DNA of 22,105 nt. Source: Desulfobacterales bacterium. Lineage in GTDB: Bacteria > Desulfobacterota > Desulfobacteria > Desulfobacterales > UBA5852. Below are positions 465 through 22,105 of this stretch, piece after piece; the first letter of the stretch is position 1, and every line of letters begins with the position of its first letter. The stretch spans positions 1 to 22,105 of the forward strand of contig JASJBQ010000018.1 in NCBI GenBank assembly GCA_030066455.1, read 5' to 3'. A model generated the notes under the pieces. That model was not told the DNA's origin. It searched no databases and worked only from the letters and a program-made list of their open reading frames with translations. The translations under genes and the position numbers were made by a program.

Positions 465-470
465 GATCCT

Positions 471-2889: not shown

Positions 2890-2922
2890 TCGATTATTCC
2901 TAGTAAAATGTAAGCAGCCTGG

Positions 2923-4926: not shown

Positions 4927-6729
4927 CTATATACTTGCGGGTTGGCTCGCCACGGTTGTCACAACCTTCTCGGGAACCGCATCAACAGTATTGTCTGTGC
5001 CATCTAAGGGGTTCAGCCTTTTGAGAATTCCCCCCTCGAGGCGATAGGCGATATCGGCGGCCTCCAGCAACGCCTTCTGGTGAGAGATGGCAAAAATGGT
5101 AATCTCACCAGCAAGCTTTTTCATGGTTTGGCAAATGGCTTTTTCGGTTTCCGGATCGAGCGCCGTCGTCGCTTCATCCAAGATCAACAACTTGGGTTTG
5201 TTCACGAGGGCGCGTGCAATGGCAATGCGCTGGCGCTGTCCACCGGAGATTTTGCTGCCTCTTTCCCCCACGACGGTGTGGATACCCTCATCGAGTTTGG
5301 AGACGAAATCCCAGACGCCAGCAGCCTTGAGCGCGTTTTCGACGTCAGCTTCCGAGATGCCCTTGCTTCCCAGGGTGACGTTGATGAATACGCTGTCGTG
5401 CAGCAGTAAAGTCTCCTGCGGAACGTAGCCGATCATCTGCCGCCACTGGTTGATGTCAACCGTACCGAGAGGCAGGTCATCGATCCAGATTTCACCTTCC
5501 TGCGGACGGATAAGCCCGATCATCAAGTCAGCCAGTGTCGTCTTGCCGGCCCCGGAGGGCCCAATGACGGTGACGAATTTTCCCTGGGGCAGGTCCAAAC
5601 AGAGATTGCGGAGGATCTCCTTCTCGTCGTACTTAAAGCCGATGTGATCCAGCCGGATGGCTTTGTTCAAATGCGGTTTTTCCCTTCCCGCAAAGGTCTC
5701 TTCTTTTTCCTCCGCTTCGCGCATCTTCTCCAACAGGGACCAGTAGGAGCTTTCCGTGAGGACAAACTTCTGGTATTCCTGCTGGACCTTGTGGACATTC
5801 TTCAGGACCCTTCGAATCAGGTAGATCATGGCTACAACGACCGGCAGCGCCATTTTCATTTGGATGACGGCCACGTAAAGTATGATCGCCACGAAGCCGA
5901 TCATCAATGGTTCCTGCACGTTCGACAGAACCGCCTTGCTGGTGACGACTTCCTTCTGCAGACGTTTCAGACCCTTGGTTTGTCTTTTCAGCACGGTGAG
6001 GGTCGATGCTTCCCGGCCCATGGCCTTGAGCGGCTTGATCGAAACCAGGCTGTCCACCATCTGCGCATTGTAGGCCTGGGCAAGAACGACGTTATCCTTA
6101 CCCGCCCGGCGTGCCTTTCTAACGAACGGTCCCAGGAGAAAGACGATCACAAGGCCAATGGCCAGGGCCATGAGGCTGGCCTGCCACGAAACCATAAGGG
6201 CGATACAGGTATAAAAGCCGGCTTCGATCATGTAGCTGAGCATGCGCGCGCTGTGGTCGAAAGCCATGGCCGTGTTAGTGCTCTCAAGGGCGACACCGGT
6301 CACCAGTTTACCGGTGGGCTGCCGCATAAAATGCTCCCAGCGCGTCCGGAAGAGGATTTTCAGATATTGGAGCCTGAGGTCGGTGGTGATACGTGCGGCG
6401 GTAAAGCCGATTTGGTTCTGGGCAAGGAGCACCAGAGCGCATTTCAGGGTCATGCACACAACGAACAATACCAGCAGGGTCGCGATCACGTTGGCGATAC
6501 CGAAGGTCGTCAACATGTCCTGCAGATACATCAGGAGGGTTTGTTCCAATTCGGTTGCGTCCGGCCTGACCGCACCAAGACCTTTCTCATCCTGCCCCAG
6601 AATCAAGGCCAAGAGGGGGACAAACACCGAAATCCCGAAACCCTCCGACAAGCCGGCAAAAATCATGGCCATAACCATGAGCAGGCTGCGGTAGGGATAG
6701 CGACGCGCAAAAATAAAAAAAAGTTTCAT
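4927..6729 (-). CDS. Type I ABC exporter, membrane and ATPase domains fused
   Basis: A 600-residue half-transporter of the MsbA/PglK-like exporter group. Hydrophobic helices lie at about 15-45, 80-105, 165-200 and 270-305, with the long linkers expected of a six-helix domain. The ATPase has Walker A GPSGAGKT (390-397), Q-loop Q438, signature ISGGQ (494-498), Walker B LLILDE (514-519) with E519, and H550, so it appears active as a homodimer. The last 30 residues are a polar tail. The gene lies between spt and neuB in the same direction, 147 bases after spt. I see no good ribosome binding site at the ATG. Candidate cargo is a sphingolipid or a lipid-linked glycan flipped across the inner membrane; the sequence does not distinguish them. 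Confidence 0.93.
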   Translation of the reverse strand: MKLFFIFARRYPYRSLLMVMAMIFAGLSEGFGISVFVPLLALILGQDEKGLGAVRPDATELEQTLLMYLQDMLTTFGIANVIATLLVLFVVCMTLKCALVLLAQNQIGFTAARITTDLRLQYLKILFRTRWEHFMRQPTGKLVTGVALESTNTAMAFDHSARMLSYMIEAGFYTCIALMVSWQASLMALAIGLVIVFLLGPFVRKARRAGKDNVVLAQAYNAQMVDSLVSIKPLKAMGREASTLTVLKRQTKGLKRLQKEVVTSKAVLSNVQEPLMIGFVAIILYVAVIQMKMALPVVVAMIYLIRRVLKNVHKVQQEYQKFVLTESSYWSLLEKMREAEEKEETFAGREKPHLNKAIRLDHIGFKYDEKEILRNLCLDLPQGKFVTVIGPSGAGKTTLADLMIGLIRPQEGEIWIDDLPLGTVDINQWRQMIGYVPQETLLLHDSVFINVTLGSKGISEADVENALKAAGVWDFVSKLDEGIHTVVGERGSKISGGQRQRIAIARALVNKPKLLILDEATTALDPETEKAICQTMKKLAGEITIFAISHQKALLEAADIAYRLEGGILKRLNPLDGTDNTVDAVPEKVVTTVASQPASI

Positions 6730-6876: not shown

Positions 6877-8067
6877 TCAGCGATGCTCCGGTTCTTGTTT
6901 CGACTTAGAAAAAGCGGCAATAATCGCATCCACCTGCTCCGTGGTGTGGCCAGCGCTCATGCTGCATCGCAGCAATGCGCTGCCGTCGGGCGTAGCCGGA
7001 GGGAGCACAAGGTTGACGTAAACACCGTTTTCAAGGAGGGTGCACCATTTGCGGACGGCCTCCTCCTTGTTTTCCAATCGGATGGCGATAATCGGGCTCG
7101 GCTCGGGGCTGAGCTCGAATCCCAGCGTTTTGAGTTGGTCATACAGATGGTGGGCATTCTCCCAGAGCTTGGCTTTCAGTTCCGGGTGCCGTCGCATGGT
7201 CGCCAGAGCCGTGCGGGTGGAGGCGATAATCGAGGGAGACGGTGAGGCAGTGAAGACATAGGGCCGATTCGCAAATCGAATGATATCCAGTTCCGGATGG
7301 TTGCTCGCGCAATACCCGCCGATGGCACCCAGGCTCTTGCTGAAGGTGCCGACGATGAAGTCCACATCCTTTTCAACACCCTCCTCTTCGGCCAACCCGC
7401 GGCCATTGGCCCCCAGGACCCCCAGCGAGTGGGCCTCATCGACAAGGAGATAGGCGCCATAACGTTTCTTGACCTCGGTAATTTCAGCCAACGGGGCCTG
7501 GTCGCCGAGCATGCTGTACATGCCCTCAACAATCACCAACGCGCTTGACGCCCGTTCGCCGAGCCGCCGCAGTCGCTTATCGAGATCGGCGGGATTGTTG
7601 TGACGAAAACGAATGATATCGGCGCCGCTGAGCTGGCAGCCGTCATAGATGCTGGCATGGCAGTCCGCGTCGATCATGATGACATCGTCTTTGCCTGCCA
7701 GTGTTGAAATCATCCCCAGATTGGCGACATATCCCGTTGAAAATACGATGACATTCCGACAATCAAAAAAGTCGGCCAAGTCCCGCTCCAACGCGATGTG
7801 GGCATTATAGGTGCCATTGGCCGCACGCGACCCGGTGGTCCCCGTGCCCTCGGTCTTGAGGGCATGGCAGGCTGCTTCCACACAATCCGGGTTAAAGGTC
7901 AGACCCAGATAGTTATTCGTTCCCGCCAGAATGGTGGGGCGCCCATTGACGATGGCCTCCGTGGGGGAAATAACCTTTTCCATCACCACGTTGACCGATT
8001 TCAGCCCGCATTCGGCAAGGGCCTGCCGCGTTGCCGCCAAGGTCTCAAATTTAGCGAAAAGCGTCAT
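6877..8067 (-). CDS. spt: Alpha-oxoamine synthase, probable serine palmitoyltransferase
   Basis: This 396-residue PLP enzyme belongs to the alpha-oxoamine synthase family (SPT, KBL, BioF, ALAS). GTNNYLGL (49-56), GTGTTGSRAANGT (74-86), H137 in DADCHAS, VDEAHSLG with D210 and H213, and the PLP lysine K244 in TFSKSLGAIGG are all intact. SPT condenses an acyl thioester with L-serine to 3-ketosphinganine, the first step of sphingolipid synthesis. The family alone would leave KBL or BioF open. The adjoining ACP, acyl-AMP ligase, CerR-like and bCerS-like genes make SPT by far the best reading. It begins 2 bases after the acp stop with GGAAG upstream, so the acyl donor is probably this ACP. The amino acid used is an inference. 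Confidence 0.88.
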   Translation of the reverse strand: MTLFAKFETLAATRQALAECGLKSVNVVMEKVISPTEAIVNGRPTILAGTNNYLGLTFNPDCVEAACHALKTEGTGTTGSRAANGTYNAHIALERDLADFFDCRNVIVFSTGYVANLGMISTLAGKDDVIMIDADCHASIYDGCQLSGADIIRFRHNNPADLDKRLRRLGERASSALVIVEGMYSMLGDQAPLAEITEVKKRYGAYLLVDEAHSLGVLGANGRGLAEEEGVEKDVDFIVGTFSKSLGAIGGYCASNHPELDIIRFANRPYVFTASPSPSIIASTRTALATMRRHPELKAKLWENAHHLYDQLKTLGFELSPEPSPIIAIRLENKEEAVRKWCTLLENGVYVNLVLPPATPDGSALLRCSMSAGHTTEQVDAIIAAFSKSKQEPEHR

Positions 8068-8069
8068 TT

Positions 8070-8318
8070 TCAGTTCTTCCCGGTCAGGCGCTCGAGTTGC
8101 AGCGCCAAATCCTTGATGGTCCTTACGTCCGCCAGCACGTTGAGGGGGATCGATATGTCGAAATGATCCTCGACATCCTCAATCAGATTCATGACCTTGA
8201 GGGAATCAAACTCGAGATCGGAGATCAGGTCCGTATTTTCGTCGATATCCAAGTCGTGTGCCACGATTTCCTTAATCGCCACGATGACTTGGGAAACAAT
8301 TTGCTCATATGTCGGCAT
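8070..8318 (-). CDS. Dedicated acyl carrier protein
   Basis: An 82-residue acidic four-helix carrier protein. The phosphopantetheine attachment site is S39 in the motif DSL (EFDSLKVMNLIEDVE). I chose the ATG at 8318 rather than a longer upstream extension because the ACP fold starts right there (MPTYEQIVSQ) and AGGGA lies about 6 bases before it. The extra 39 upstream residues would simply be cerR read in another frame. The gene overlaps the end of cerR by 14 bases and stops 2 bases before spt, so cerR, acp and spt are translationally coupled. Sphingolipid loci in Caulobacter-type bacteria carry a similar ACP beside SPT. I infer that it delivers the acyl group loaded by the upstream ligase to SPT and possibly to the ceramide synthase. 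Confidence 0.93.
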   Translation of the reverse strand: MPTYEQIVSQVIVAIKEIVAHDLDIDENTDLISDLEFDSLKVMNLIEDVEDHFDISIPLNVLADVRTIKDLALQLERLTGKN

Positions 8319-9291
8319 GCGGTGTCCCTGTGGTCTGTCTGTTCGGGTTATCGGTGATAAACCCCATAAAAACAAGCGTTTTTTTAATTCCCTGCTCCAA
8401 ATTGACGCTGGGTTGCCAGCCGATTTGGGCTGCAATCGATGTATTGTCGCAGGTCCAATCCGGGTGTGTGAGTTCCCGAACTTTCCCGGGCGTCAGCATC
8501 GGCGCGTAGCCAAAGGTCCTGGCTCCCAGCAAATTGACCGCGGCCGCAGCGAAAACCGCCAGAGATGGCAGCCTGAGGCTGCGAATCGGCCGGCCCGCCA
8601 CCTTGGCGACCATCTGTACGACGTCGCCCCAGGCGTAGCCGCCGGGGCGGCCGTCATGCAATTCAAAAATGGCGCCGGGCCATCGCTTGTGCTCGATGAG
8701 GGTGACAATCGCTTGGACCAAGTCGTCGACATAGAGCATCGAAAACCTCGATGTCCGTGAGGACGTCTGGGGTGCCATCCCCTTGCACATCAACCTGAAA
8801 AGCGGTGCGATTTCGCGATCGCCCGGTCCGTACACCGCAGGGGGCCGCAGGGCGGACCATTGCAGCTGGTTGCCCTGGGACGCGAGCATTTCCTCGCCCT
8901 GGCGTTTGCTGGCTGCGTGGTGCGACAATTGAGGCTCGCGAGCAGCCAGCGAAGACAACAATAAAAAGCGTGGCGAGGGGTGCATTCGCTTCGCTGCACG
9001 CACCATTCGCGCCACGCCTTCGGTGTTTACCCGTTTAAACTGTCGCCATTCGGCCCCGCGCACAGCACCTGCGCAGTGCACGACCGTATCGGTCCTTTTT
9101 AGTAGCCGCTTCAGGCTCTCAGGATCATCGAGTTGTCCCGGAACCCAGCGGATGTTTGCCCCTGCGGTTCGTGCCGAAGCACTGGATTGGCGGTAAAGCG
9201 CACGCACATGGTTTCCGTCGGAAGCCAACCGTTTCAGCAGTGCACCGCCAATAAAGCCAGTGGCTCCCGTCAGAGCGATAACTCTGGGCAT
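8305..9291 (-). CDS. cerR: Extended-type SDR, probable ceramide reductase (CerR-like)
   Basis: A 328-residue NAD(P)-dependent epimerase/dehydratase-type SDR. TGATGFIG is at 8-15, VVHCAGAVRG at 70-79, the serines of LLSSLAARE at 113-114, and RPPAVYGPGD at 149-158. In Caulobacter an NAD-epimerase-like protein encoded beside spt reduces the 3-keto group of keto-ceramide, and gene context suggests the same job here. One striking oddity is that the usual YxxxK reads HAASK, with His125 where the catalytic tyrosine should be and K129 present. The DNA at this place clearly encodes His-His. The gene starts 26 bases after the ligase stop without an obvious ribosome binding site and ends inside acp. A sugar or hopanoid epimerase is the alternative. 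Confidence 0.8.
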   Translation of the reverse strand: MPRVIALTGATGFIGGALLKRLASDGNHVRALYRQSSASARTAGANIRWVPGQLDDPESLKRLLKRTDTVVHCAGAVRGAEWRQFKRVNTEGVARMVRAAKRMHPSPRFLLLSSLAAREPQLSHHAASKRQGEEMLASQGNQLQWSALRPPAVYGPGDREIAPLFRLMCKGMAPQTSSRTSRFSMLYVDDLVQAIVTLIEHKRWPGAIFELHDGRPGGYAWGDVVQMVAKVAGRPIRSLRLPSLAVFAAAAVNLLGARTFGYAPMLTPGKVRELTHPDWTCDNTSIAAQIGWQPSVNLEQGIKKTLVFMGFITDNPNRQTTGTPHADI

Positions 9292-9317: not shown

Positions 9318-11120
9318 CTAACGATGCCCGACCGCCGCGCTGATGATTCGGTGCTGGTAATTGCAGGCTGCAAGATCGATGGCTGGCGTTTCGGTCTGGC
9401 CTTTGGCGACGCGTTCGAGGAAATCGCGTTTGGCCCCTGAGCGGGAAAGCTTCCCGGAGGTCGTGCGCGGCAAGGTGTTGCGCGGAACAAGCTCGATGAA
9501 ACAATCAATGCCAAGTTCGTTGCAAACCATCCCTTGCAGGTTTTCGACCAGCATGGCCCGCTTCTCCGGAGCTGACAGCCGGCACTCGATGACCAGAACC
9601 GCCTTGTCTTCACCATCATCGCCACTGACCGAAAAGGCCGAAGCGTCCCCCGAGCGCACCTCTGGCTGGCTTTCAGCGAGGTACTCGAGATCCTGCGGCC
9701 AGATGTTACGGCCGTTGATAATAATAAGGTCTTTTTGCCGGCCGGTGATGATCACACTCTCATCGGCGATGTAGGCCAGATCGCCCGTATTGAGCCATCC
9801 ATCCGGCGACAAAACCTCCCCCGAAAGCTCGACTTCGCCGAAGTAGCCCGACATCACGCTCGGCCCCTTGACATAGAGGGTTCCAACATGGCGATCGGGT
9901 AAGGTATTGCCTTTTTTATCGCGCACTTCGACGACGTGGCCGGGCAAGGCAAATCCGCACTTGACGAATTCCTTGGCATCCGCGGCACGATTGGCCGGTT
10001 TCAAGGCCGGGAAAGCCCTCTGGGTCACGGCCAGGGTTTCAGCTTCGACTTCATCGACCTGGATGCCCTGCCCCAGCGGAGAAAAGCTTACGGCCAGGGA
10101 ACATTCGGCCATGCCGTAACAGGCCAGAAAGGCACCGGGATTGAAGCCGCTGGATGCCAGCGTCTCGGAAAAGGCCAGAAGCGGTTGCGCCCGTATGGTT
10201 TCGGCTCCGACGCCAGCCACGCGCCAGGAACTCAAATCGTACTTGCTGAGATCGTTTTCCCGCAGCCGCTGCATACAGAGCTCAAACCCGAAAGGCGGAC
10301 TGAATGAAATCGTGGCCTTGTTTTTCGTAATCAGTGCCAACCACAACCGGGGTCGCATGGCAAAGTCGCGGGTCCGCAGGTAGTCCACCGAAACCTGGGC
10401 GGCCATGGGGGAGAGCACCAGCCCCACCAACCCCATGTCATGATAGTAGGGCAGCCATGAAATCGCCCGGTCACCCGGGCGAATTTTCACACCGTTGCGT
10501 ACGATATGCCCCAGGTTGTTCATGACCGTTCGGTTGGTGATCATGACGCCGCGCGGGAATTGCGTGCTTCCGGAAGTGTATTGAAGATAGGCCAACTCGT
10601 CTGGACCGGACGGCATCACTTCACTGCCGCTCGCCGGGAGTGACCTCAGCGACTGCACCGACCCGATGTAGGACAGTGGCAGTTCTTCCGCCGCTTCACG
10701 CAGAAAAGACAAATATACTTCCGGAGCAATAGCCACCGAAGCGCGGCAACTCATCAAGAGCCGTTTCAACTGAGCTACGTAAGTGGCGTGGCCGCCCAGA
10801 CGCAACGATGCCGGCAGCGGAACGGGAACCATCCCCGCGTACTGGCAGGCGTAGAACATCTGCAAAAAGCCTGGATCGGTATCAGCCACCAGCGCCACAC
10901 GCGAACCACGTTCGATCTTCAGCCCTTGTAAGCGCTTGGCGATCGCAACGGCGTCTGCTCTGAGTTGGGCGTAGGGAAGTACAAAATCAAGCTGCCCTTT
11001 GCCGTTATAGAAGTTATACCCTGTCTCTCCTTGGGCAGCGTAATCCAGGGCTTCTGTTAAAGTTGAAAAGTCGCCGTATCTCAGCTGTAACCCGTTTTTA
11101 GTAGGTGTCGCCTCCAACAT
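9318..11120 (-). CDS. Fatty-acyl-AMP ligase / acyl-ACP synthetase
   Basis: A 600-residue ANL-superfamily adenylating enzyme. The P-loop YTSGST is at 181-186, SWLPYYHDMGLVG at 221-233 is the FAAL-type motif, YGMAE is at 335-339, GWLNTGDLAY at 441-450 and GRQKDLIIINGRN at 460-472. The catalytic lysine is K557 in TTSGK. FAALs activate a fatty acid as acyl-adenylate and pass it to an ACP rather than to CoA; the adjacent acp fits this. It is the first gene of the leftward set, read from the divergent promoter region near 11.26-11.29 kb, with AAGGA about 11 bases before the ATG. I infer that it supplies the acyl-ACP used by SPT and/or the ceramide synthase. A CoA ligase is less likely but not excluded. 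Confidence 0.9.
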   Translation of the reverse strand: MLEATPTKNGLQLRYGDFSTLTEALDYAAQGETGYNFYNGKGQLDFVLPYAQLRADAVAIAKRLQGLKIERGSRVALVADTDPGFLQMFYACQYAGMVPVPLPASLRLGGHATYVAQLKRLLMSCRASVAIAPEVYLSFLREAAEELPLSYIGSVQSLRSLPASGSEVMPSGPDELAYLQYTSGSTQFPRGVMITNRTVMNNLGHIVRNGVKIRPGDRAISWLPYYHDMGLVGLVLSPMAAQVSVDYLRTRDFAMRPRLWLALITKNKATISFSPPFGFELCMQRLRENDLSKYDLSSWRVAGVGAETIRAQPLLAFSETLASSGFNPGAFLACYGMAECSLAVSFSPLGQGIQVDEVEAETLAVTQRAFPALKPANRAADAKEFVKCGFALPGHVVEVRDKKGNTLPDRHVGTLYVKGPSVMSGYFGEVELSGEVLSPDGWLNTGDLAYIADESVIITGRQKDLIIINGRNIWPQDLEYLAESQPEVRSGDASAFSVSGDDGEDKAVLVIECRLSAPEKRAMLVENLQGMVCNELGIDCFIELVPRNTLPRTTSGKLSRSGAKRDFLERVAKGQTETPAIDLAACNYQHRIISAAVGHR

Positions 11121-11532: not shown

Positions 11533-12660
11533 ATGGCGGGAATCGAGATAAAAGCAGTTGAAGATCGTGGTCTGCAGCAATGTTTCCTCAAATTGCCCAG
11601 CCGTATTTATCGCGCTGACCCGGCCTGGGTGCCCCCTCTCCTCTTTGAGCGCAAACAATTTCTATCACCCCACAATCCTTACTTCGAACATGCGCGCTAC
11701 AAAGCCTGGATCGCCTATCGCAACGGCGACCCTGTCGGCCGCGTCAGCGCGCAAATCGACCAATTGCATCTTGACCGCTACCGGGACGACACTGGCTTCT
11801 ATGGCTTGCTTGAGGCGGAAGACGATCCGTCGATATTCGAAGCCCTTTTCGGAGCGGTCGAATCCTGGCTGCGCGGACATGGAATGCGACGGGTACGCGG
11901 CCCCTTCAATCTCTCCATCAATCACGAGTGTGGAATGCTTGTTGACGGTTTCCAAACCCCGCCGATGGTTATGATGGGGCATGCGCGTCCTTATTATACC
12001 CAACGCATCGAACAGCAGGGCTACCGGGGTGAAGTCGATCTTCTGGCTTACCTGGCGCCGACCGACTTTACTTTCACGCCGGCAATGCAAAACATTGTCC
12101 GGCGCTATGAAAACACCATCTCCGTGCGCGCTTTTCAATTCAACAATTTGGATACAGACCTGGCGATTCTCAAAGACATCTACGAAGACGCCTGGTCACA
12201 GAACTGGGGGTATCTTCCCTTTACAAACAAAGAGCTCAAGCACCTGGGCCGCGACCTCAAACAATTCGTGCCGGAAGAGTTTGTGGCCTTCGCCGAGATC
12301 GACGGCCAGCCGCAGGGATTTATCACCGTATTCCCCAACCTCTACGAAGCCATGCGCGACCTGCGAGGACGCTTGCTGCCCTTTGGCTGGCTTAAACTTT
12401 TGTGGCGACTCAAAACCGGTGCCATCAAAACCTTGCGCGTCCCTCTGATGGGGGTGCGCCAGAAGTACCATGACAGCCTGACAGGGGCTGCGCTGGCCCT
12501 CAGCCTGGTCGCGCATGTCCAGCAGGTGGCTCTCAAACGCGCCTACGAACATGTCGAAATGTCATGGATCCTGGAAGACAACAAGGGCATGCGCAACATG
12601 ATCGAAAATATCGGTGGGGACGCCTACAAACGGTATCGTATCTTTACCAAATCCCTCTGA
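11533..12660 (+). CDS. bcerS: GNAT-fold acyltransferase, probable bacterial ceramide synthase
   Basis: A 375-residue protein of the large GNAT-like group usually annotated as hypothetical or N-acetyltransferase, which includes the Caulobacter ceramide synthase bCerS. Landmarks are the N-terminal RIYRADPAWVPPLLFE (about 24-39), the RVRGPFNLSINHECG block (about 121-135) and a C-terminal GNAT-like end with EMSWILEDNKGMRNMIENIGG followed by a tyrosine/arginine-rich tail. bCerS N-acylates 3-ketosphinganine before the keto group is reduced, the reverse of the eukaryotic order. It is the first gene rightward of the divergent promoter, opposite the SPT set, which strongly supports the role. A G-rich stretch beginning AAGGGGGG precedes the ATG. 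The acyl donor (CoA or ACP) is not determinable. Confidence 0.82.
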   Translation: MAGIEIKAVEDRGLQQCFLKLPSRIYRADPAWVPPLLFERKQFLSPHNPYFEHARYKAWIAYRNGDPVGRVSAQIDQLHLDRYRDDTGFYGLLEAEDDPSIFEALFGAVESWLRGHGMRRVRGPFNLSINHECGMLVDGFQTPPMVMMGHARPYYTQRIEQQGYRGEVDLLAYLAPTDFTFTPAMQNIVRRYENTISVRAFQFNNLDTDLAILKDIYEDAWSQNWGYLPFTNKELKHLGRDLKQFVPEEFVAFAEIDGQPQGFITVFPNLYEAMRDLRGRLLPFGWLKLLWRLKTGAIKTLRVPLMGVRQKYHDSLTGAALALSLVAHVQQVALKRAYEHVEMSWILEDNKGMRNMIENIGGDAYKRYRIFTKSL

Positions 12661-12710
12661 GCATCGCTATAGGCGCCTTGCCGACCAATTAGATGAAGGA
12701 CGCTGCACTC

Positions 12711-13511
12711 ATGCCGGCCCAATCTACCATGTTCACGGCGATCGTACTGGCGGCTGACCGCGGCCATTCCGATCCCGTCGCCCGGGCGGCCGGAGCCAGC
12801 TGCAAAGCCATGGCCCCGGTCGGTGGGACACCGATGCTGGTTCGCGTGCTCGAGGCCTTGCACGCCGCCGATAGCGTGACATCCGTTATCCTGTGTGGCC
12901 CCCCCCGCGCGGTTATCGACCATGACAACCGCCTGCAGCAGATTCTGAAATTCTATCGACCTCAGTGGCGGCCCAGCGGGTCGTCGCCGAGCACAAGCAC
13001 CGCCATGGCCCTCGAAACGCTGGCCGTGGATACACCCGTTCTGCTCACGACCGCGGACCACGCCCTGCTGACCCCGGCCATGGTGGATCATTTTTGCCAC
13101 CAGGCCCGCCGTGCATCCGCCGACGTCCTGGTGGCCCTGGCCGCCTATAGAGACGTTATGGATGCCTACCCCGGGATGCGGCGCACGGCCACCCGTTTCC
13201 AGGATGGGCCTTTCTGCGGGTGCAACCTGTTTGCCATCCTCAACGCCCGCGGCCGCCGGGCCGCCGATTTCTGGCGCCAGGTCGAAGCCGAACGCAAGAA
13301 ACCGTGGAAGATGATCCAAAAGCTCGGGTGGCTGATGGTTCTGAAGTACCTGGCGGGTCGGTTGACCCTCGCGGAAGGCCTTGAACGCGCTTCGGAAATG
13401 ATCGGCCTAAAGGCCGATGCCGTGCTGATGCCTTTCCCGGAGGCGGCCGTTGATGTCGACACGCCCGCCGATTGGTCTTTTGTCGAGCGCCTTGTACGCA
13501 ATTCTGGTTGA
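12711..13511 (+). CDS. MobA-like nucleotidyltransferase, candidate headgroup-activating enzyme
   Basis: About 266 residues with the Rossmann-like NTP-transferase fold of the MobA/IspD type. FTAIVLAADRG lies close to the N-terminus and is followed by CKAMAPVGGTPMLVRVLEAL, the nucleotide- and substrate-binding region. TTADHALLTP stands where these enzymes bind metal, and VDVDTPADW closes the domain. The glycine-rich LAAGxGxR loop is altered to LAADRGHSDPVAR. I prefer the ATG at 12711 because AAGGA precedes it and the fold begins almost at once; the ATG at 12693 would add six residues. It lies between bcerS and lptF. In Caulobacter a nucleotidyltransferase (CpgD) makes CDP-glycerate for ceramide phosphoglycerate, so a similar headgroup-activating step is a reasonable inference; the substrate is unproven. 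Confidence 0.78.
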   Translation: MPAQSTMFTAIVLAADRGHSDPVARAAGASCKAMAPVGGTPMLVRVLEALHAADSVTSVILCGPPRAVIDHDNRLQQILKFYRPQWRPSGSSPSTSTAMALETLAVDTPVLLTTADHALLTPAMVDHFCHQARRASADVLVALAAYRDVMDAYPGMRRTATRFQDGPFCGCNLFAILNARGRRAADFWRQVEAERKKPWKMIQKLGWLMVLKYLAGRLTLAEGLERASEMIGLKADAVLMPFPEAAVDVDTPADWSFVERLVRNSG

Positions 13512-13573
13512 TGACCGACGGTCAACGTTATGATCGTAATACTGATACCAACCCGGATACGCGCGGTTATAAT
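13512..13573 (+). promoter_or_regulatory. Palindrome and consensus -10 box upstream of lptF
   Basis: Directly after the nucleotidyltransferase stop is a perfect 13-bp palindrome, TGACCG-A-CGGTCA (13512-13524). A consensus TATAAT lies at 13568-13573, about 98 bases before the lptF ATG. No good -35 box is seen 16-18 bases upstream of it, so activator dependence or a false positive are both possible. The 160-base gap is unusually long for this otherwise tight gene set. Confidence 0.3.
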
Positions 13574-13671
13574 CAAGGAACGATAGCGGAATATGTCGGT
13601 ATTACACGCGAAACCTTTCTGAAGCCTGAACGCCACGCAAGCGCGCCAATCACGCGCCTGCCGAACCGACC

Positions 13672-14736
13672 ATGATCATTCGTCGCTATATCATCTCCGA
13701 GATCACCAAACCGGCAGCCAACATCCTTTTCCTGATGGTGGCGATATTTGCCAGCTATACGGCCATCACCTACCTGACGGATGCGGTCGGTGGGTTGATG
13801 ACGCCCGCTCAGGTCGGCACATTGATCGGCCTGCGTGTCGGGATGGCCCTTGAAATCCTACTCCCCGTAACGCTGTATCTATCCGTCATGATTGCCCTGG
13901 GACGGCTTTACAAGGATTCGGAAATGACCGCGCTGGCAGCCTGTGGCCTTGGAACCAGCGGGGTCGTTTGGCCGGTGATGATGTTGTCCCTGCCGGTGGC
14001 GCTGATGGCCGGTGGTGCTTCCCTGTATATCCGCTCAGCCGCCTACACGCAGATCTATAAACTGCGCACGCAAGCCCGGGCCGATTTCTCCATCGGCCAG
14101 CTTGAATCCGACCGTTTTCTCGAGATTGCCGACGGCCGCTATACTTTTTTCAGCGAGGAAATCGACTACCGACGAAATGTCGCCTACAAGGTGTTCCTGC
14201 GTGAAAAAAAGGACGATGCCTGGGTCGTCATTCAAGCCGAGGAGATGGCCGCCGGCGGGCGCAACAAAATGGGCTACCCGGTCATGATCCTGCGCAACGG
14301 CAATCTGGTGGAATTTCCATCATCCGGCAAGGGAGCGAATATCATCCGCTTCGAGAAAGCCCACTACCCCATTCTGTCGGACGTGGGAAGGTCGGAGCGC
14401 TATCGACGCAAAGCCGCCGCGACCGCCCACCTGCTTCAATCCGACCGTCTGGAAGACATCGCCGAATTGCAGTGGCGGCTTTCGACGCCCCTGTCGACGC
14501 TTCTGCTGGCGCTGCTCGGCATCCCTCTGAGCCGCACCAATCCAAGGCGCGGCAAGTATGCCAAGCTGGGAACGGCGCTGATCATCTTCGCCGTTTATTA
14601 CCAGATGTTCACCATCGCCAAAACCAACGTGGAAAATGGCACCGTTGCGCCCGAGATCGGTATCTGGTGGGTTCCCGCCCTGCTGCTGGCGTTCGTACTG
14701 GTCATGCTGTGGCGCACGGGAAGACTGAGGCCCTGA
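13672..14736 (+). CDS. lptF: LptF-family permease (YjgP/YjgQ)
   Basis: A 354-residue inner-membrane protein of the LptF/LptG family: three N-terminal helices (about 15-40, 55-82, 95-125), a periplasmic beta-jellyroll domain (about 130-255) and three C-terminal helices (about 265-350). GRLYKDSEMTALAACGLG (about 81-98), ELQWRLSTPLS (about 264-274) and the PLSRTNPRRGKY segment match LptF proteins closely. With LptG and the LptB ATPase the family extracts LPS from the inner membrane and pushes it to the LptC-A-D bridge. No lptB, lptC or lptA is seen here. Lying among ceramide genes, this copy may serve sphingolipid export, or it may simply be the host's only LptF. No strong ribosome binding site is visible. 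Confidence 0.93.
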   Translation: MIIRRYIISEITKPAANILFLMVAIFASYTAITYLTDAVGGLMTPAQVGTLIGLRVGMALEILLPVTLYLSVMIALGRLYKDSEMTALAACGLGTSGVVWPVMMLSLPVALMAGGASLYIRSAAYTQIYKLRTQARADFSIGQLESDRFLEIADGRYTFFSEEIDYRRNVAYKVFLREKKDDAWVVIQAEEMAAGGRNKMGYPVMILRNGNLVEFPSSGKGANIIRFEKAHYPILSDVGRSERYRRKAAATAHLLQSDRLEDIAELQWRLSTPLSTLLLALLGIPLSRTNPRRGKYAKLGTALIIFAVYYQMFTIAKTNVENGTVAPEIGIWWVPALLLAFVLVMLWRTGRLRP

Positions 14737-14738
14737 CG

Positions 14739-15821
14739 GTGAGATTCAGACGCATCAACAAAATCGATTTCCACATCGGCCGCAACACCCTTCAGGGCGT
14801 CTTTCTGGTGCTGGCGGGTCTGCTGTTTCTGTTCGGATTCCTGGAACTGCTCTCGCAGTTGAACGATGTCGGCAAGGGTCAGTTCCGCCTGGCGGACGCC
14901 TTCGTCTACGTCGCTCTCACCCTGCCCCGGCAGGCGGTCATTCTGATGCCCATCAGTGCTCTTCTGGGGTGTACGGTTTCGCTCGGCATGATGGCCGACC
15001 ACAATGAACTGACCGCCATGCAGGCCGCCGGCATATCGGTCCGACGCATCGGCCTCTCCGTGGCGACCGCCAGCATCCTGCTCATGCTGATTTCCGTATT
15101 CGTGGCCGAATTTATCGCCCCACCGCTGGACCAGCACGCCCGCCTGCGGCGCTCCCAGGCGCGCTATGGAAAAACGGTCCTGGTGTCCAAAAGCGGTTTC
15201 TGGATGCGCCAGGAACGTTTTTTTATCCACGTGGCCGGCTCCTTTTCGGAGAAACAGGCGGCGGACATCGAGCTGTATGAACTCGATCCGGAAGGTCAGA
15301 TCAGCCGTTTCCTGCACGCCCGCACAGCGACGCTTCAGGATGACCGCACCTGGCTGCTGGAGGACGTCTCTCAGCAGCGTATCGAAGGCGGGGTCATTCA
15401 AACGCAGGCGCTCGAAAATTACCGCCTGAACCATTTTCTCACACCCAGCCAGATGCAGATCTTCAAACTTCCCCCCGACAGCCTCTCGATCAGCGACCTG
15501 TGGGCCTATATCCGCAGCCTGAAGGCGCGCAATCTGAACGCTGAGAACTATGACCTTGCCTTGTGGCAGAAAATAACGCAGCCGGTGACCACCGCATCGA
15601 TGGTGCTCCTGGCGTTGACCTTCATTTTCGGCCCGGTGCGCATGCGCTCGGCAGGCAAGCGTATCGCCACCGGTATGATCGTCGGCATCCTGTTTTATCT
15701 GCTGAACCAGGTTTTTGGCCACATGGGGCTATTGTTCAATATCCCCCCGCTGCTGACCACCCTGATGCCCGTCGGCCTGATTCTGCTCTATGCGCTTCGG
15801 CAGTTGGGCCGTACGTTCTGA
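14739..15821 (+). CDS. lptG: LptG-family permease (YjgP/YjgQ)
   Basis: The 360-residue partner of LptF with the same three-helix, jellyroll, three-helix plan. LMPISALLGCTVSLGMMADHNELTAMQAAGIS-like sequence lies at about 67-100, PPDSLSISDLW at about 248-258, and LTFIFGPVRM and the final helices follow; these resemble E. coli LptG clearly. I chose the GTG at 14739, two bases after the lptF TGA, with GAGG about 10 bases upstream. The frame stays open 89 codons further left, but that stretch is lptF read in another frame. The tight spacing means LptF and LptG are made together. Its cargo, LPS or a sphingolipid, cannot be read directly. Confidence 0.92.
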   Translation: MRFRRINKIDFHIGRNTLQGVFLVLAGLLFLFGFLELLSQLNDVGKGQFRLADAFVYVALTLPRQAVILMPISALLGCTVSLGMMADHNELTAMQAAGISVRRIGLSVATASILLMLISVFVAEFIAPPLDQHARLRRSQARYGKTVLVSKSGFWMRQERFFIHVAGSFSEKQAADIELYELDPEGQISRFLHARTATLQDDRTWLLEDVSQQRIEGGVIQTQALENYRLNHFLTPSQMQIFKLPPDSLSISDLWAYIRSLKARNLNAENYDLALWQKITQPVTTASMVLLALTFIFGPVRMRSAGKRIATGMIVGILFYLLNQVFGHMGLLFNIPPLLTTLMPVGLILLYALRQLGRTF

Positions 15822-15894
15822 TCGATCGCCATCCGGAAGCCGGAAACGCGACGCTTGCAACGCATCCGCCTTCGATCGACATCGGTATTGGCTG

Positions 15895-16848
15895 TTATTC
15901 CGTAATATTGGGAGGTGTTCGCCCGAGGGTCCATTGCGAGCAGACCGGCGCTTGAGAACCCCTGGCGTCATGGTTGGGCCGTAAATCCTGGACATTGATG
16001 CGCCAGCCACCGCTTTGGGTGCCGATCGAAAAAATGCGCAGGCATGCTTTCTTGTCCGGATCGGCGTAGTCGGCGGTCGCGGACGGCAATCCGATGACCG
16101 GGATCGGTGCCACTGGACCGTCCACACTTTCCCGGGAATGGCGGTGCGTGTGCCCGTGCAGCACCAGCTCGGCCCCATAGCGGCTTAAAACGCCCCGCAG
16201 ACGATCGGCGTCGCGAAGACTTTTACGCGCCTTGACCTGGCCTCTGATGATGGGGTGATGAACGAGAACAACGCGAAAAAGGCGCTTCCGGCCGGTTCGC
16301 TCCAAGACGGCTGCAAGGCGCCGGCATTGCGCTGCACCCAGCCGACCGGCGGCTGAAAACGGTAGCGTGGGCAAAGCCGAAGACAAACCGATCAGGGCGA
16401 CACCGTTTTGCTCACGAACACGGGGGTAAGCTCCGGGATCTGAGCCGGATTCAGGCTCTCCCCGGCCCCGATCGGCCGCCAGGTAGTCGCCCCAGGCACG
16501 CCCAAGGGATTCGCTCGAAGCGGCCACGAGGGCGTCGTGGTTCCCGGGAATGACAAAAACACGTTCCGGTGAACCGATCCGCTCCAAAACCCCCCTGGCA
16601 CGTAAAAGCTCGCGAGGCAGGCCCATGTGGGTCAAGTCGCCTGTCACCACGACGTGGTCCGGTGTACCGGAAGGAAGACATGCAAGCAGACGGGTAAGCA
16701 TCTCCGGCGGGTTGGTACGGCCGCGTCGCAGTCGCCAGGACAGGTAGCTCAGGAAGCGTTTGTTGGTAAAAAACCGCCAGGACGCGCCGGTGGAATGGAA
16801 GATATGAAAATCCGTCAGATGCACCAAATGAAAATCGGCTTGCGGCAT
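15895..16848 (-). CDS. Calcineurin-like metallophosphoesterase
   Basis: A 317-residue two-metal phosphoesterase. All five motifs are present: LTDFH (residues 11-15), VTGDLTH (about 68-74), IPGNHDAL (about 100-107), VLVHHP (about 193-198) and LHGHTHRHS (about 229-237). No signal peptide is seen, so it is probably cytoplasmic or peripheral. The family includes LpxH-type pyrophosphatases and many other phosphomono- and diesterases. It stands convergent to lptG and divergent from the lipid kinase. I infer a role in trimming a phosphorylated lipid or nucleotide intermediate of sphingolipid headgroup synthesis. That rests on context only; a 3',5'-cyclic nucleotide or nucleotide-sugar substrate is equally possible. 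Confidence 0.88.
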   Translation of the reverse strand: MPQADFHLVHLTDFHIFHSTGASWRFFTNKRFLSYLSWRLRRGRTNPPEMLTRLLACLPSGTPDHVVVTGDLTHMGLPRELLRARGVLERIGSPERVFVIPGNHDALVAASSESLGRAWGDYLAADRGRGEPESGSDPGAYPRVREQNGVALIGLSSALPTLPFSAAGRLGAAQCRRLAAVLERTGRKRLFRVVLVHHPIIRGQVKARKSLRDADRLRGVLSRYGAELVLHGHTHRHSRESVDGPVAPIPVIGLPSATADYADPDKKACLRIFSIGTQSGGWRINVQDLRPNHDARGSQAPVCSQWTLGRTPPNITE

Positions 16849-16906
16849 GGGCGACCTATATCGGCGTCGTAGCGTCCTTTAGCGTGTGCGGGGCAAAGCG
16901 GCAGGC

Positions 16907-16935
16907 TTTACAAAGCGGTGTTGGGCTTATATATA
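16907..16935 (+). promoter_or_regulatory. Sigma70-like promoter for the lipid kinase gene
   Basis: TTTACA (16907-16912) and TATATA (16930-16935) are separated by 17 bases. The predicted start near 16942 gives a leader of about 95 bases. The self-complementary TATATA could also serve as a -10 box for the leftward phosphoesterase gene. Confidence 0.4.
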
Positions 16936-16944
16936 CCACCTTGC

Positions 16945-16973
16945 TTGACGGATGCAACCAAACCGCCCGTCAA
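16945..16973. repeat. TTGACGG / CCGTCAA inverted repeat just downstream of the kinase promoter
   Basis: Perfect 7-bp arms (16945-16951 and 16967-16973) flank 15 bases. The repeat begins at about the predicted transcription start, a usual place for a repressor site; it could also form a hairpin at the 5' end of the leader. Confidence 0.3.
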
Positions 16974-17036
16974 ATAAGATGCTCCGGTCTTCAAACGATC
17001 GACGGAGCTTAAGCCAAAAACACATTTGGAGATTTC

Positions 17037-18098
17037 ATGCCCCACGAGCAAAACCACGGCATCGGAGATGCCGACGAATCATTAATGCCCAATCATCACC
17101 TGTCGGCCGCGGCGAAGGTTCCGGCGGCCGGACGCTGGCGAATGGGTGTGATCAGCAACCCCACCAGCGGCAGCAATCGACAAAAATTCTCCCAGATACG
17201 CCGCTATATCGACGACCAGGGGAACTTGCCGCACAAGATCGTCACCAATGCCGGCGATGTCGTCCGCGCCGTAGAGGAACTGGCCCGCCAGGAGGTCAAC
17301 CTGATTGTTGTCAATGCCGGCGACGGCACCATCCATGCGGTCCTCACGACGCTTTTTCACCAACGCCCCTACCAGACATTGCCGCTCCTGGCCCTTCTGC
17401 GTGGTGGCACCACGAATATGACCCCCAAAGACCTGGGCCTGCGGGGCTCTCGCATCCAGTCGCTCGCGCGTATCCGGTCCTGGTCGCGATCGGGGGGCAG
17501 CGAGGGTTTTATCGTCCGACGCCCGATTTTGAGACTCCAGCACCCGACCATCCGTCTCCCCCTCTACGGTCTCTTTTTCGGCGCGGCCAGCATTTCCAAA
17601 GGCATTCATCTATTTCACAAGCGCATTCACGGAACGGGACTGGAAGGCAATCCAGCCAACGCCCTTATTCTGGCCCGCTTTCTAATGGCCATCGCCGCGC
17701 GCGACCTCGACGAACTGGGTGCCGCGCGGGCGACCATCACCGTCGACGGCAACACACTGCCCGCCGAGCACTTCATATTGATTCTGACCTACACGCTGGA
17801 GCGTCTGATATTCGGCATGCAGCCCCATTGGGGCACGGAAGACGGCGTGCTGCGTCTTACGGCCGCCGCCGCCACCTCGCGGCACTTTCTGCGTGTCATG
17901 GCGGCCATGTGCCAGGGCCGGCGTTCGCGGCTGGCCATCCCCCCCAATGGCTTCTACAGCCATAACGCCCATGAGGTGCGAATGGTTTTGAATGGCAGTT
18001 TTACGCTGGACGGTGAGCTTTTCGAGGTCGATGCCCACCAGGGAGAATTGGTGCTGGATGCCGGTGGGCAGGCTGCCTTTCTTCAGCTGAGTCGCTAG
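17037..18098 (+). CDS. Diacylglycerol/ceramide kinase-family lipid kinase (LCB5-like)
   Basis: A 353-residue lipid kinase of the DAGK catalytic family, which includes sphingosine, ceramide and diacylglycerol kinases and bacterial YegS/DgkB. Motifs are ISNPTSG (39-45), the nucleotide loop NAGDGT (93-98, in place of GGDGT), RGGTTNMTPKDLG (122-134) and the C-terminal DGELFE (325-330). About 30 polar residues precede the fold. GGAG lies 5 bases before the ATG. The gene is coupled to the next one (2-base gap). In Caulobacter a kinase of this family (CpgB) makes ceramide-1-phosphate; by context the same reaction is the best inference here, but diacylglycerol or another lipid cannot be ruled out. 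Confidence 0.85.
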   Translation: MPHEQNHGIGDADESLMPNHHLSAAAKVPAAGRWRMGVISNPTSGSNRQKFSQIRRYIDDQGNLPHKIVTNAGDVVRAVEELARQEVNLIVVNAGDGTIHAVLTTLFHQRPYQTLPLLALLRGGTTNMTPKDLGLRGSRIQSLARIRSWSRSGGSEGFIVRRPILRLQHPTIRLPLYGLFFGAASISKGIHLFHKRIHGTGLEGNPANALILARFLMAIAARDLDELGAARATITVDGNTLPAEHFILILTYTLERLIFGMQPHWGTEDGVLRLTAAAATSRHFLRVMAAMCQGRRSRLAIPPNGFYSHNAHEVRMVLNGSFTLDGELFEVDAHQGELVLDAGGQAAFLQLSR

Positions 18099-18100
18099 AC

Positions 18101-19045
18101 ATGTCGGACACACTTGCGGACATCATCGGGCAGAAGGTCAGCCAGCCCGTCTATCCGGCCATTCAGGCGTTGACCGACCAGATTCGCGCGAAGATCCCGA
18201 ATGCCGCCGCCATTCTCTTCTATGGCTCCTGTCTGCGCTCCGGGCAGGATATCGGGGGCATGGCCGATCTTTACGTACTCGTGGACGCGTATCGGCATTC
18301 GGGGCAAAACCGTTTCTGGGCGGCCATGAATGCCCTGCTGCCACCCAATGTCTTCTACCTCGAAATCCCCTTTGAAGATCGACGCGTGAGGGCCAAGTAT
18401 GCGGTTCTCTCCCTGAGCGACTTCGAGCAAGGGGTGTCGATGCGGTGGTTTCATTCCTATATCTGGGGCCGATTCGCCCAGCCCATCGCCATCGCCTATG
18501 CACGCAGCCGGGCCGACAGGGAACGGGTCATCACGGCCCTGGAGAAAGCCGTCACAACCTTCATGCGGCGGGCCCTGCCATGCACCCGGGCACCGTTTGC
18601 GGCCCGGGATCTGTGGTTCAAGGCCCTTTCCTTGAGTTACCGGTCGGAGTTAAGGGCCGAAAAGCCGGACAAACTCGCCAAACTCGTCGCCCTGTACGAC
18701 GCCTACTACGAGCTTATAACGCGTGCCGCCATTGCCGCCCTTCCCTATGATGTCGCCATCGAAGAAGATGGCGCGAAGCGACGCTATAACCCCCGGGTTT
18801 CAAAAAACCTGCGTTTCAGGGCGCGCCAGATCTGGCGCCTGCGATTTTTTCAGGGCAAGGTCTTGTCGATCCTGCGGTTGTTGAAAGGTGCGTTTACCTT
18901 CTCGGGGGGCATCGCCTACGTGCAGTGGAAGATCGAGCGTCACACCGGGGTCAGGGCCGACGTCCCTGCCCATCTGGAGCGTTTTCCGATCATCGCCGTC
19001 GGTGTTCTGGCCTGGCGCACCTACCGGCAGGGCGGGTTTCGCTAA
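18101..19045 (+). CDS. Nucleotidyltransferase-fold protein resembling Tam41-type CDP-lipid synthases
   Basis: A 314-residue protein I do not firmly recognise. Its N-terminal third shows FYGSCLRSGQ (40-49) followed by MADLYVLVD (54-62). This is the glycine-serine and spaced acidic pattern of polymerase-beta-fold nucleotidyltransferases and resembles the start of Tam41, the mitochondrial CDP-diacylglycerol synthase. The second carboxylate of the classical DxD is a tyrosine here (DLY), with D62 as a possible substitute. The remainder is rich in helices and basic residues, with a hydrophobic stretch near 215-225 and a basic RFRARQIWRLRFF segment that could sit at a membrane. It starts 2 bases after the kinase stop, so the two are made together. 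I infer that it acts on the phosphorylated lipid made by the kinase, perhaps to form a CDP-lipid. Confidence 0.55.
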   Translation: MSDTLADIIGQKVSQPVYPAIQALTDQIRAKIPNAAAILFYGSCLRSGQDIGGMADLYVLVDAYRHSGQNRFWAAMNALLPPNVFYLEIPFEDRRVRAKYAVLSLSDFEQGVSMRWFHSYIWGRFAQPIAIAYARSRADRERVITALEKAVTTFMRRALPCTRAPFAARDLWFKALSLSYRSELRAEKPDKLAKLVALYDAYYELITRAAIAALPYDVAIEEDGAKRRYNPRVSKNLRFRARQIWRLRFFQGKVLSILRLLKGAFTFSGGIAYVQWKIERHTGVRADVPAHLERFPIIAVGVLAWRTYRQGGFR

Positions 19046-19720: not shown

Positions 19721-19876
19721 ATGTCGAAGAAGACCTTTTCAACCCGTGTTGCCGAAGACCGCATCAAGGCCCTCAAGCATCTTGCCGTCGATGTGGATAA
19801 ATCCCTCGGCGTCTTGCTCGAGGAGGCCATAACGGATCTCGTGAAGAAATACGAAAAGAAAGGAATTCGATCATGA
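19721..19876 (+). CDS. Ribbon-helix-helix DNA-binding protein, 51 residues
   Basis: A 51-residue protein starting MSKKTFSTRV. It has a short beta strand (KKTFSTRV), a helix (AEDRIKALKHLAVDV), a turn and a second helix (SLGVLLEEAITDLVKKYEKK), the plan of CopG/Arc-type ribbon-helix-helix regulators and many antitoxins. Such proteins bind operators as dimers. Its stop overlaps the next start in ATGA (19873-19876), the arrangement typical of antitoxin-toxin pairs, but the partner here is a PilZ-like protein rather than a recognisable toxin. The upstream AT-rich DNA with GCATG words is the natural place for self-regulation. No strong ribosome binding site is visible. Confidence 0.75.
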   Translation: MSKKTFSTRVAEDRIKALKHLAVDVDKSLGVLLEEAITDLVKKYEKKGIRS

Positions 19877-20247
19877 ATGACCGGTTCTCACCCCTGTGCG
19901 CCGGCAGGTTGAGCGATGCGGACTTCTCTTCATTCGCAGACGGGACTGCTTCCCGGGGAAAGTGGGACGAGAAACGTTCATTTCCGCGCTACCCCCTTGA
20001 AGAACCGGTCATTCTTGAAACCGACGAGGGCGAAATGATCGGTGCCGTGGTCATCAACTACGGACGCCACGGACTGTATTTTGAATCGTATCTGGAAATG
20101 AAACGGGGCAGTGTTCTCAAAATCCGGAACGAATCGTCCCTTTCGGTGCCCTGCCAGGGCGGGTGTCGCGCACAGGTGCGCTGGACGCGCCGGGTCGGAC
20201 ACCAAAAAGCCGATTACCGCTATGGTGCGGGTGTTGAGTACTGCTGA
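19873..20247 (+). CDS. PilZ-domain protein
   Basis: A 124-residue protein whose residues about 33-122 fit a PilZ domain, the common receptor for cyclic di-GMP. The N-terminal arginine motif RxxxR is present as RSFPR (35-39). The second motif, usually D/NxSxxG, reads NYGRHG (62-67), with glycine in place of serine. Beta-strand sequence continues through VRWTRR to YGAGVEYC. The first 30 residues are polar and probably flexible. It overlaps the ribbon-helix-helix gene by 4 bases, so the two are co-translated. The altered second motif may weaken nucleotide binding. No output domain is present, so it would act by binding another protein. Confidence 0.75.
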   Translation: MNDRFSPLCAGRLSDADFSSFADGTASRGKWDEKRSFPRYPLEEPVILETDEGEMIGAVVINYGRHGLYFESYLEMKRGSVLKIRNESSLSVPCQGGCRAQVRWTRRVGHQKADYRYGAGVEYC

Positions 20248-21457: not shown

Positions 21458-22105
21458 TCAGCGGCGCTCCAGCCGGGCCACGGATTCGACGTGCCAGGTA
21501 TGCGGGAACATATCCACGGGCTGAACTTCGGCCACCCGATAGGCGCTCTTGAGCACGGCAAGGTCACGGGCCAGAGTGGCCGGATTGCAGGATACATAGA
21601 CGATACGCCGCGGGCCCATGGCCGTCACCTGCGCCACGACGTCCTTATGCATCCCGTCGCGCGGCGGATCGATGATCATGACATCCGGTGTCTTGAGCTC
21701 CGACAGGAGGCCGCGGACGTCGCCGCACCAAAAACGGCAGTTGTCGATGCCGTTCAGCGTGCTGTTCCGGCGAGCGTCCTCGACGGCGCTCGCCACGATT
21801 TCGATCCCGTCGATCTGACGCGCCGCATCCGCCATGAAGATCGCTATCGTTCCGGTACCGCAGTAAAGATCGAGCACGCGCTCCGATCCGCTCAACCGGG
21901 CGTAATTCTTGGCGATAGCGTAAAGTCGCCGGGCTGAACGGGTGTTGGTCTGAAAAAATGAATTGGCGGATATTTCGAACATATACGGTCCGATGCCATC
22001 CCGCAGACAACGCTCGCCGGCCAGCGCAACCTCGTATTCACCGAAGGCGATGGCGGCCTTGCGGGAGGTGACATTGTTCACCACGCTCACCACCTCGGGG
22101 TGTTT
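21458..22105 (-). CDS. rlmD: 23S rRNA uracil-C5 methyltransferase (TrmA/RlmD family), 5' end outside window
   Basis: The C-terminal 215 residues of a TrmA/RlmCD-family SAM-dependent RNA (uracil-C5) methyltransferase; the frame is open to the window edge, so the N-terminal part is missing. Landmarks in order are HPEVVSVVNN, SFFQTNT, the SAM loop DLYCGTGTIAIFMA, a further acidic residue in GIEIV, the catalytic-site DPPRDGMHKDV, the nucleophilic cysteine in YVSCNPATLARDL, and the C-terminal DMFPHTWHVESVARL. These enzymes methylate U1939 or U747 of 23S rRNA or U54 of tRNA. RlmD is the likeliest choice but the C-terminal part cannot separate the subgroups. A methionine-like GTG at 22093 is internal to the domain and not the true start. 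The gene ends about 180 bases before feoA in the same direction. Confidence 0.88.
   Translation of the reverse strand, partial: KHPEVVSVVNNVTSRKAAIAFGEYEVALAGERCLRDGIGPYMFEISANSFFQTNTRSARRLYAIAKNYARLSGSERVLDLYCGTGTIAIFMADAARQIDGIEIVASAVEDARRNSTLNGIDNCRFWCGDVRGLLSELKTPDVMIIDPPRDGMHKDVVAQVTAMGPRRIVYVSCNPATLARDLAVLKSAYRVAEVQPVDMFPHTWHVESVARLERR

Follow-up and report, generated by a model that had tools for sequence, protein, structure and literature searches.

A stretch of 22,105 nucleotides from a Desulfobacterales bacterium (contig JASJBQ010000018.1 of assembly GCA_030066455.1, positions 1 to 22,105 of the forward strand; hereafter the window) carries a lipid kinase gene and a Tam41-like nucleotidyltransferase gene in the company of serine palmitoyltransferase (SPT), and as a whole reads as a single sphingolipid region in a Desulfobacterota-type genome. 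The plus strand holds, in this order, genes for a CerS-like protein, a MobA-like nucleotidyltransferase, LptF, LptG, the kinase and the Tam41-like protein, with a minus-strand phosphoesterase gene between LptG and the kinase. On the minus strand follow an acyl-AMP ligase, a CerR-like protein, a carrier protein, SPT and an ATP-binding cassette (ABC) exporter, and then NeuB-like, short-chain dehydrogenase/reductase (SDR), aldehyde dehydrogenase, NeuA-like and transketolase genes (Table 1). An initial annotation had proposed a possible new headgroup pathway from four of these genes; its observations were borne out in part, and its interpretation received partial support. The sphingolipid setting, the MobA-like nucleotidyltransferase and the LCB5-type kinase coupled to a Tam41-like protein were all recovered, and so was the metallophosphoesterase, which however does not belong to the rightward set to which it had been assigned. 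LptF and LptG, which lie between the genes named there and both score above their cut-offs, had gone unmentioned. The cluster is real, well conserved and mostly explained by a published pathway, that for ceramide phosphoglycerate (CPG) in Caulobacter crescentus; what is new is the phylum and the contiguous, reduced form.

The kinase/Tam41-like pair and its sphingolipid setting

In a scan of GTDB species genomes, 233 stretches with relatives of the Tam41-like protein were found, and the best 80 of these were kept as loci, truncated at 10 kb or where the contig ends. The kinase and Tam41-like genes of the window are spaced by only 2 bp, and in 71 of the 81 loci (window included) the Tam41-like gene is immediately preceded on its 5' side by the kinase, so that their coupling is not due to chance; one genome (G002) has the Tam41-like gene without an adjacent kinase. 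The Tam41-like protein exceeds the gathering score of Tam41_Mmp37 and has the three-dimensional fold of Tam41, an assignment for which the Foldseek and VIA lists leave other families possible. Its identity to the Tam41 or bacterial Tam41 CDP-diacylglycerol synthases of known structure (PDB 6ig2, 6ig4, 7ecd) is 17% over the aligned part, and unlike these enzymes it sits in a sphingolipid cluster, its substrate presumably being ceramide-1-phosphate. The kinase, with its DAGK catalytic domain inside an SPT-bearing cluster, is CpgB-like in this respect.

Across the 80 loci and the window, the module of CerS, nucleotidyltransferase, LptF, LptG, phosphoesterase, kinase and Tam41-like protein recurs whole or in part, under record titles that name Desulfobacterota and its orders, Deltaproteobacteria, Gammaproteobacteria, Nitrospirota, Nitrospinota and Calditrichota. 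The nearest relatives are metagenome-assembled genomes (MAGs) of Desulfobacterales (L001, 84%; L002, 79%). A Tam41-like match was also present in 14 of 299 Pseudomonadota genomes (the centre of the draw, G007, included), several of them also with the kinase and SPT. In two low-GC Pseudomonadota genomes a giant open frame of some 2,000 residues includes the acyl-AMP ligase (L111, 1860-8333; L112, 11696-17524), and in L111 a fatty acid hydroxylase gene lies between LptG and the nucleotidyltransferase.

The expected co-occurrence with SPT was strong when genomes were drawn from the phylum, and the objection foreseen in the initial annotation, that its genes would not accompany spt elsewhere, for the most part fails. 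Among 297 Desulfobacterota genomes, SPT over its cut-off was found in 14, the Tam41-like protein in 22 and both in 13 (Fisher 3.9e-16), that is, in 13 of 14 SPT genomes against 9 of 283 others; this draw was centred on G006, one of the 13, and includes G021 and G034, already known from a search of 49 genomes reached through their Tam41-like loci. The sole SPT genome without a Tam41-like gene (G430) has its SPT on a 5.4-kb contig. Of the nine Tam41-only genomes, G404 has a divergent SPT-like gene and an acyl-AMP ligase beside the Tam41-like gene, G359, G379, G397 and G433 have weaker SPT matches (198-216 bits), and G021 falls in an SPT-less branch considered below.

Table 1. Features of the window, with coordinates, strand and the evidence for each name.
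Feature	Position	Strand	Evidence and remarks
Transketolase, NeuA-like, aldehyde dehydrogenase, SDR and NeuB-like block	3-4811	-	NeuB and PseF models match below cut-offs
ABC exporter, MsbA/PglK-like, adjoins SPT	4927..6729	-	Pfam ABC_tran and ABC_membrane
Serine palmitoyltransferase (SPT)	6877..8067	-	NF047599, 643.1 bits (cut-off 500)
Specialised acyl carrier protein, AcpR-like	8070..8318	-	Pfam PP-binding; open frame extends to 8435, start picked by eye
Epimerase/dehydrogenase, putative CerR-like ceramide reductase	8305..9291	-	Pfam Epimerase, 5.9e-27; name from position
Fatty acyl-AMP ligase, AasR-like	9318..11120	-	NF006624, 797.7 bits (cut-off 600)
GNAT N-acyltransferase, putative CerS-like ceramide synthase	11533..12660	+	Pfam Acetyltransf_1, 8.9e-5; name from position
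MobA-like nucleotidyltransferase, CC_1153-like	12693..13511	+	Pfam NTP_transf_3, 6.6e-15
LptF-type permease	13672..14736	+	TIGR04407, 307.6 bits (cut-off 230)
LptG-type permease	14739..15821	+	TIGR04408, 346.5 bits (cut-off 240); GTG start at 14739 read by eye
Calcineurin-like metallophosphoesterase	15895..16848	-	Pfam Metallophos, 1.2e-13
DAGK_cat lipid kinase, putative CpgB-like ceramide kinase	17037..18098	+	Pfam DAGK_cat, 1.6e-14
Tam41-fold nucleotidyltransferase, CpgC-like	18101..19045	+	Pfam Tam41_Mmp37, 1.9e-7, 31.2 bits (cut-off 24)
PilZ-domain protein, right of the cluster	19873-20247		
Part of RNA uracil methyltransferase gene, right of the cluster	21458-22105		

Comparison with the Caulobacter cluster and the missing transferase

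The closest known counterpart is the ceramide (di)phosphoglycerate cluster CC_1168-CC_1152 of C. crescentus, with which the window shares the SPT operon, CerS, a CofC-like nucleotidyltransferase, LptF2/LptG2, a phosphoesterase, a ceramide kinase beside the CDP-diacylglycerol-synthase-like CpgC and a potential flippase. As described in PMC11324152, CC_1160 (CpgB) is the ceramide kinase, CC_1161 (CpgC) bears a CDP-diacylglycerol-synthase domain, CC_1153 is a CofC-like nucleotidyltransferase, CC_1158 bears a phosphoesterase domain, CC_1155/1156 are LptG2/LptF2, CC_1159 (CpgA) has a domain of the kind that displaces CMP from CDP-alcohols, and CDP-glycerate is the product of CC_1152 (CpgD). The idea that a second nucleotidyltransferase has been added relative to Caulobacter therefore does not hold, since the known set already contains both CC_1153 and CpgC. 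What distinguishes the window, apart from its phylum, is that it lacks CpgA and CpgD. In this respect its gene set resembles that of Zymomonas mobilis, which according to PMC11324152 lacks CC_1159 and is able to make CPG but not ceramide diphosphoglycerate (CPG2); however, the Z. mobilis genes are scattered over 10 regions, while those of the window are contiguous. Within the phylum of the window, Spt-like genes and sphingolipids have been reported for SPT producers of the Black Sea (PMC11334938), the main text of which contains neither 'phosphoglycer' nor 'ceramide phosph'.

Protein searches from alphaproteobacterial queries listed matches in Dongia, Methylopila and other relatives and one Caulobacterales MAG protein, C. 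crescentus being absent among the matches listed. A Caulobacterales protein (P0301) is 35% identical to the Tam41-like protein over 316 columns. In a Dongia-like locus (L105), whose gene order broadly matches the published Caulobacter order, the kinase is 26% identical to that of the window over 317 columns, the protein adjoining CerS is 35% identical to the MobA-like protein over 199 columns, the likeness to CC_1153 being one of description, and the protein beside LptF is 40% identical to the phosphoesterase over 304 columns. Judged by this comparison, the window phosphoesterase could match CC_1157, called probably unrelated in PMC11324152, rather than CC_1158. The ABC exporter, on which the MsbA, HepA and PglK models all score below cut-off, is placed like the potential flippase CC_1166 and may have the same role.

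No recognisable transferase for the last step had been seen in the initial annotation, and indeed no CDP-alcohol phosphotransferase (PF01066, the CpgA family) was present among the 20 window frames scanned, nor was a CpgA found at 1e-10 in the drafts G011 and G012. Likewise, CpgD (CTP:phosphoglycerate cytidylyltransferase) was found neither among the window frames scanned nor at 1e-20 in these two drafts, and the MobA-like and NeuA-like genes of the window belong to other families. Among the loci, 33 encode a CpgA-type PF01066 protein (U0), of which 30 of the 32 long frames lie directly before the kinase, and 15 encode a CpgD-like protein (U1). The region 5' of the kinase is covered in 69 of the 81 loci, of which 28 have CpgA and the phosphoesterase, 33 the phosphoesterase only, 4 CpgA only and 4 neither; thus, the phosphoesterase is present in 61. 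Three of the 37 loci scored as CpgA-less do have a CpgA-like match when the whole genome is considered (L051, L074 and, as a fragment, L080). The search took in 49 genomes, most of them drafts; CpgA is not seen at the locus in 46 of them, and 42 of the 46 have no match at 1e-10, the three controls being positive. Eight of the 49, three controls included, have CpgD at 1e-80 or better, and the weaker best matches in eight more genomes (1e-33 to 1e-20) were taken for other enzymes of the same fold. Three of the former eight (G032, G042, G046) have CpgD without CpgA, with a Tam41 locus that breaks off no more than about 300 bases ahead of the kinase in every case. At these thresholds 39 of the 49 genomes have neither.

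CpgA changes its state at least 8 times on the tree. In 31 loci CpgA and CpgD are linked (17 both, 11 neither, 2 CpgA only, 1 CpgD only; Fisher 1e-5; TagD-like proteins scored with CpgD), and the 'CpgD only' locus, L051, does have CpgA. This link may nevertheless be inherited, since the number of independent contrasts is only one if starred branches are used, and five on the best tree. At five loci entitled Desulfuromonadales, Desulfuromusa or Deltaproteobacteria (L026, L027, L031, L037, L054), a TagD/RfaE-like cytidylyltransferase stands in the place of CpgD (below both model cut-offs in L031), a hint that the CDP-alcohol there may not be CDP-glycerate.

PF01066 proteins were searched for the missing transferase in ten genomes and further in six. 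In the near relative G011, five proteins account for six hits and include PgsA-like, 510-aa PssA-like and PIS/archaetidylinositol phosphate synthase-like ones, all of which were rejected as candidates, being below the cut-offs of their models with none standing out. In G011 and G012 a second CdsA-type gene lies near the PIS-like PF01066 gene (L157, 6649-7254; L158, 5340-6886). In L105, which also has CpgA beside the kinase, a second PF01066 protein (16126-17334; 30% to a CpgA-like query) is encoded beside LptG and is a possible first-step transferase.

Predicted headgroup chemistry and alternative products

We consider it rather probable that the window represents the headgroup-and-export half of a phosphosphingolipid cluster of the CpgB/CpgC type, with CPG or a close relative as its product; CPG2 is not expected because CpgA and CpgD are absent. 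Ceramide would be built by SPT, acyl-AMP ligase, carrier protein, CerR and CerS, as their families suggest, and the simplest chain from there would lead through ceramide-1-phosphate and CDP-ceramide to CPG, families and fold being observed and activities predicted. In this chain the kinase would convert ceramide to ceramide-1-phosphate, as published for Caulobacter CpgB, the Tam41-fold protein would move CMP from CTP onto ceramide-1-phosphate, and a transferase encoded outside the cluster would couple the resulting CDP-ceramide to glycerate or phosphoglycerate. The metallophosphoesterase may strip a spare phosphate, and LptF/LptG would carry the product towards the outer membrane. Phosphoglycerate as acceptor followed by the phosphoesterase would mirror the logic of phosphatidylglycerol synthesis. 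The route via CDP-ceramide, regarded as unusual in the initial annotation, is made plausible by the Tam41-like protein; it is not a new idea, however, as nucleoside diphosphate (NDP)-activated ceramide was already suggested by Olea-Ozuna et al. (2024; PMC11324152, Conclusions). The term 'CDP-ceramide' did not occur in the open-licence papers searched, and a preprint of May 2026 states the CpgC route from ceramide-1-phosphate to CPG to be unidentified (PMC13228409). In two genomes, G004 (one contig; L029) and G024 (not a single contig; L020), the only LptF/LptG pair found sits in the sphingolipid cluster, and these bacteria would have either no lipopolysaccharide (LPS) or a shared exporter.

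Several points weigh against this reading. The CDP-ceramide step is drawn from the fold, and the Tam41 enzymes described use phosphatidic acid; the likeness to CpgB and CpgC is one of description, not of aligned C. crescentus sequence; and the contig may simply end before CpgA and CpgD. In addition, SPT exceeds its cut-off in 35 of the 49 genomes reached through Tam41-like loci and fails to do so in 14, several of which belong to one clade; G012, among these 14, does carry fragments of SPT at the edges of contigs. Finally, the nucleotidyltransferase persists, although the CC_1153 mutant of Caulobacter still produces CPG (PMC11324152), which a plain CPG-only product does not explain. The MobA-like enzyme of the window is an intact-looking nucleotidyltransferase, and its counterparts lie within 300 bp of CerS on the same strand in 28 of 36 places, the others being not adjacent by this definition (7) or at an edge (1). 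It does not follow CpgA, since among covered loci it occurs in 20 of 37 without (21 counting L020) and in 19 of 32 with CpgA. Among the closest known systems is also TTHA0179 of Thermus thermophilus (PDB 2dpw), deposited as a hypothetical transferase, for which we know of no link to sphingolipids; a lead to phosphatidylglyceroylalkylamine, prompted by its origin in Thermus, was rejected, the literature having given only a meeting report.

The persistence of the nucleotidyltransferase and the SPT-less genomes leave room for another headgroup or backbone. It is conceivable, if clearly less probable than CPG, that the MobA-like enzyme activates, as its NDP derivative, an acid or alcohol that is not glycerate, so that the product is a phosphosphingolipid as yet undescribed. 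Its retention without CpgA and CpgD argues for this alternative, as does the replacement of CpgD by a TagD/RfaE-like protein, which suggests that headgroup parts may be swapped, and the NeuB module directly beyond the SPT operon of the window. This module of NeuB-like, NeuA-like, transketolase, aldehyde dehydrogenase and SDR genes, perhaps for an unusual acidic sugar, might supply such a sugar as the headgroup. However, the whole module was found in one other of the best 80 of 233 loci (L042, about 15-20.9 kb; the loci of the two nearest relatives end before its position), where it is 71-80% identical compared to 37-53% for the lipid genes and resembles a separately moving surface-glycan block. 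We put forward only tentatively the broader proposal that a Tam41 branch turned to ceramide-1-phosphate makes CDP-ceramide across Desulfobacterota, Gammaproteobacteria, Nitrospirota and Alphaproteobacteria, and that clusters which lack CpgA and CpgD and keep the MobA-like enzyme make a class other than CPG and CPG2.

It appears unlikely that the substrates of the kinase and the Tam41-like protein are diacylglycerol and phosphatidic acid, which would place both proteins in the formation of ordinary phospholipids. The Tam41 enzymes described do make CDP-diacylglycerol (PMC11646218; PMC7018664), and seven genomes with Tam41-like loci, L011 (G001), L016 (G002), L004 (G014), L008 (G018), L010 (G020), L014 (G021) and L017 (G023), lack SPT at 1e-4 to 1e-8, an acyl-AMP ligase at 1e-40 and CerR at 1e-30, G001 and G002 being single-contig chromosomes. 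However, a CdsA-type enzyme is already present in all 20 genomes searched for it (as a single match in 16), CpgB phosphorylates ceramide in vitro (PMC10331486), and the co-occurrence with SPT is strong. All of the seven except G023 lie on one branch of the Tam41 tree (support 84 with L011), on which G001 keeps the whole CerS-to-Tam41 set with CpgA and CpgD, G018 retains a reduced set with CerS, and G016 has an acyl-AMP ligase fragment (1.0e-159). Might these SPT-less bacteria salvage sphingoid bases or use another backbone?

We regard as very improbable the remaining alternative, in which CpgC is not a CDP-ceramide synthase and itself transfers the glycerate unit from NDP-glycerate, with the MobA-like enzyme as the source of the latter. 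The formation of NDP-activated small acids is typical of CofC-type enzymes, but nucleotidyltransferase-fold enzymes transfer the nucleoside monophosphate and not the acid. Although it would account for the retained nucleotidyltransferase and for the lack of a transferase in the cluster, and CC_1153 is described as CofC-like with 2-phospho-L-lactate guanylyltransferase being named, ceramide-1-phosphate and NDP-glycerate would yield a pyrophosphate, yet CPG has one phosphate and is still made by the CC_1153 mutant (PMC11324152).

The collected loci constitute a natural dissection of the pathway: the kinase and Tam41-like genes keep together, for the most part along with the phosphoesterase, whereas CpgA is now present, now absent. 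This narrows down the genes behind the first unit of the headgroup and provides enzymes with which CDP-ceramide formation could be assayed directly, and the window, lacking the last two genes of the published pathway, helps to frame the open question of how the first headgroup is attached. Since such lipids help Caulobacter survive without LPS (PMC12275187), their spread in uncultured bacteria bears on the biology of the outer membrane.

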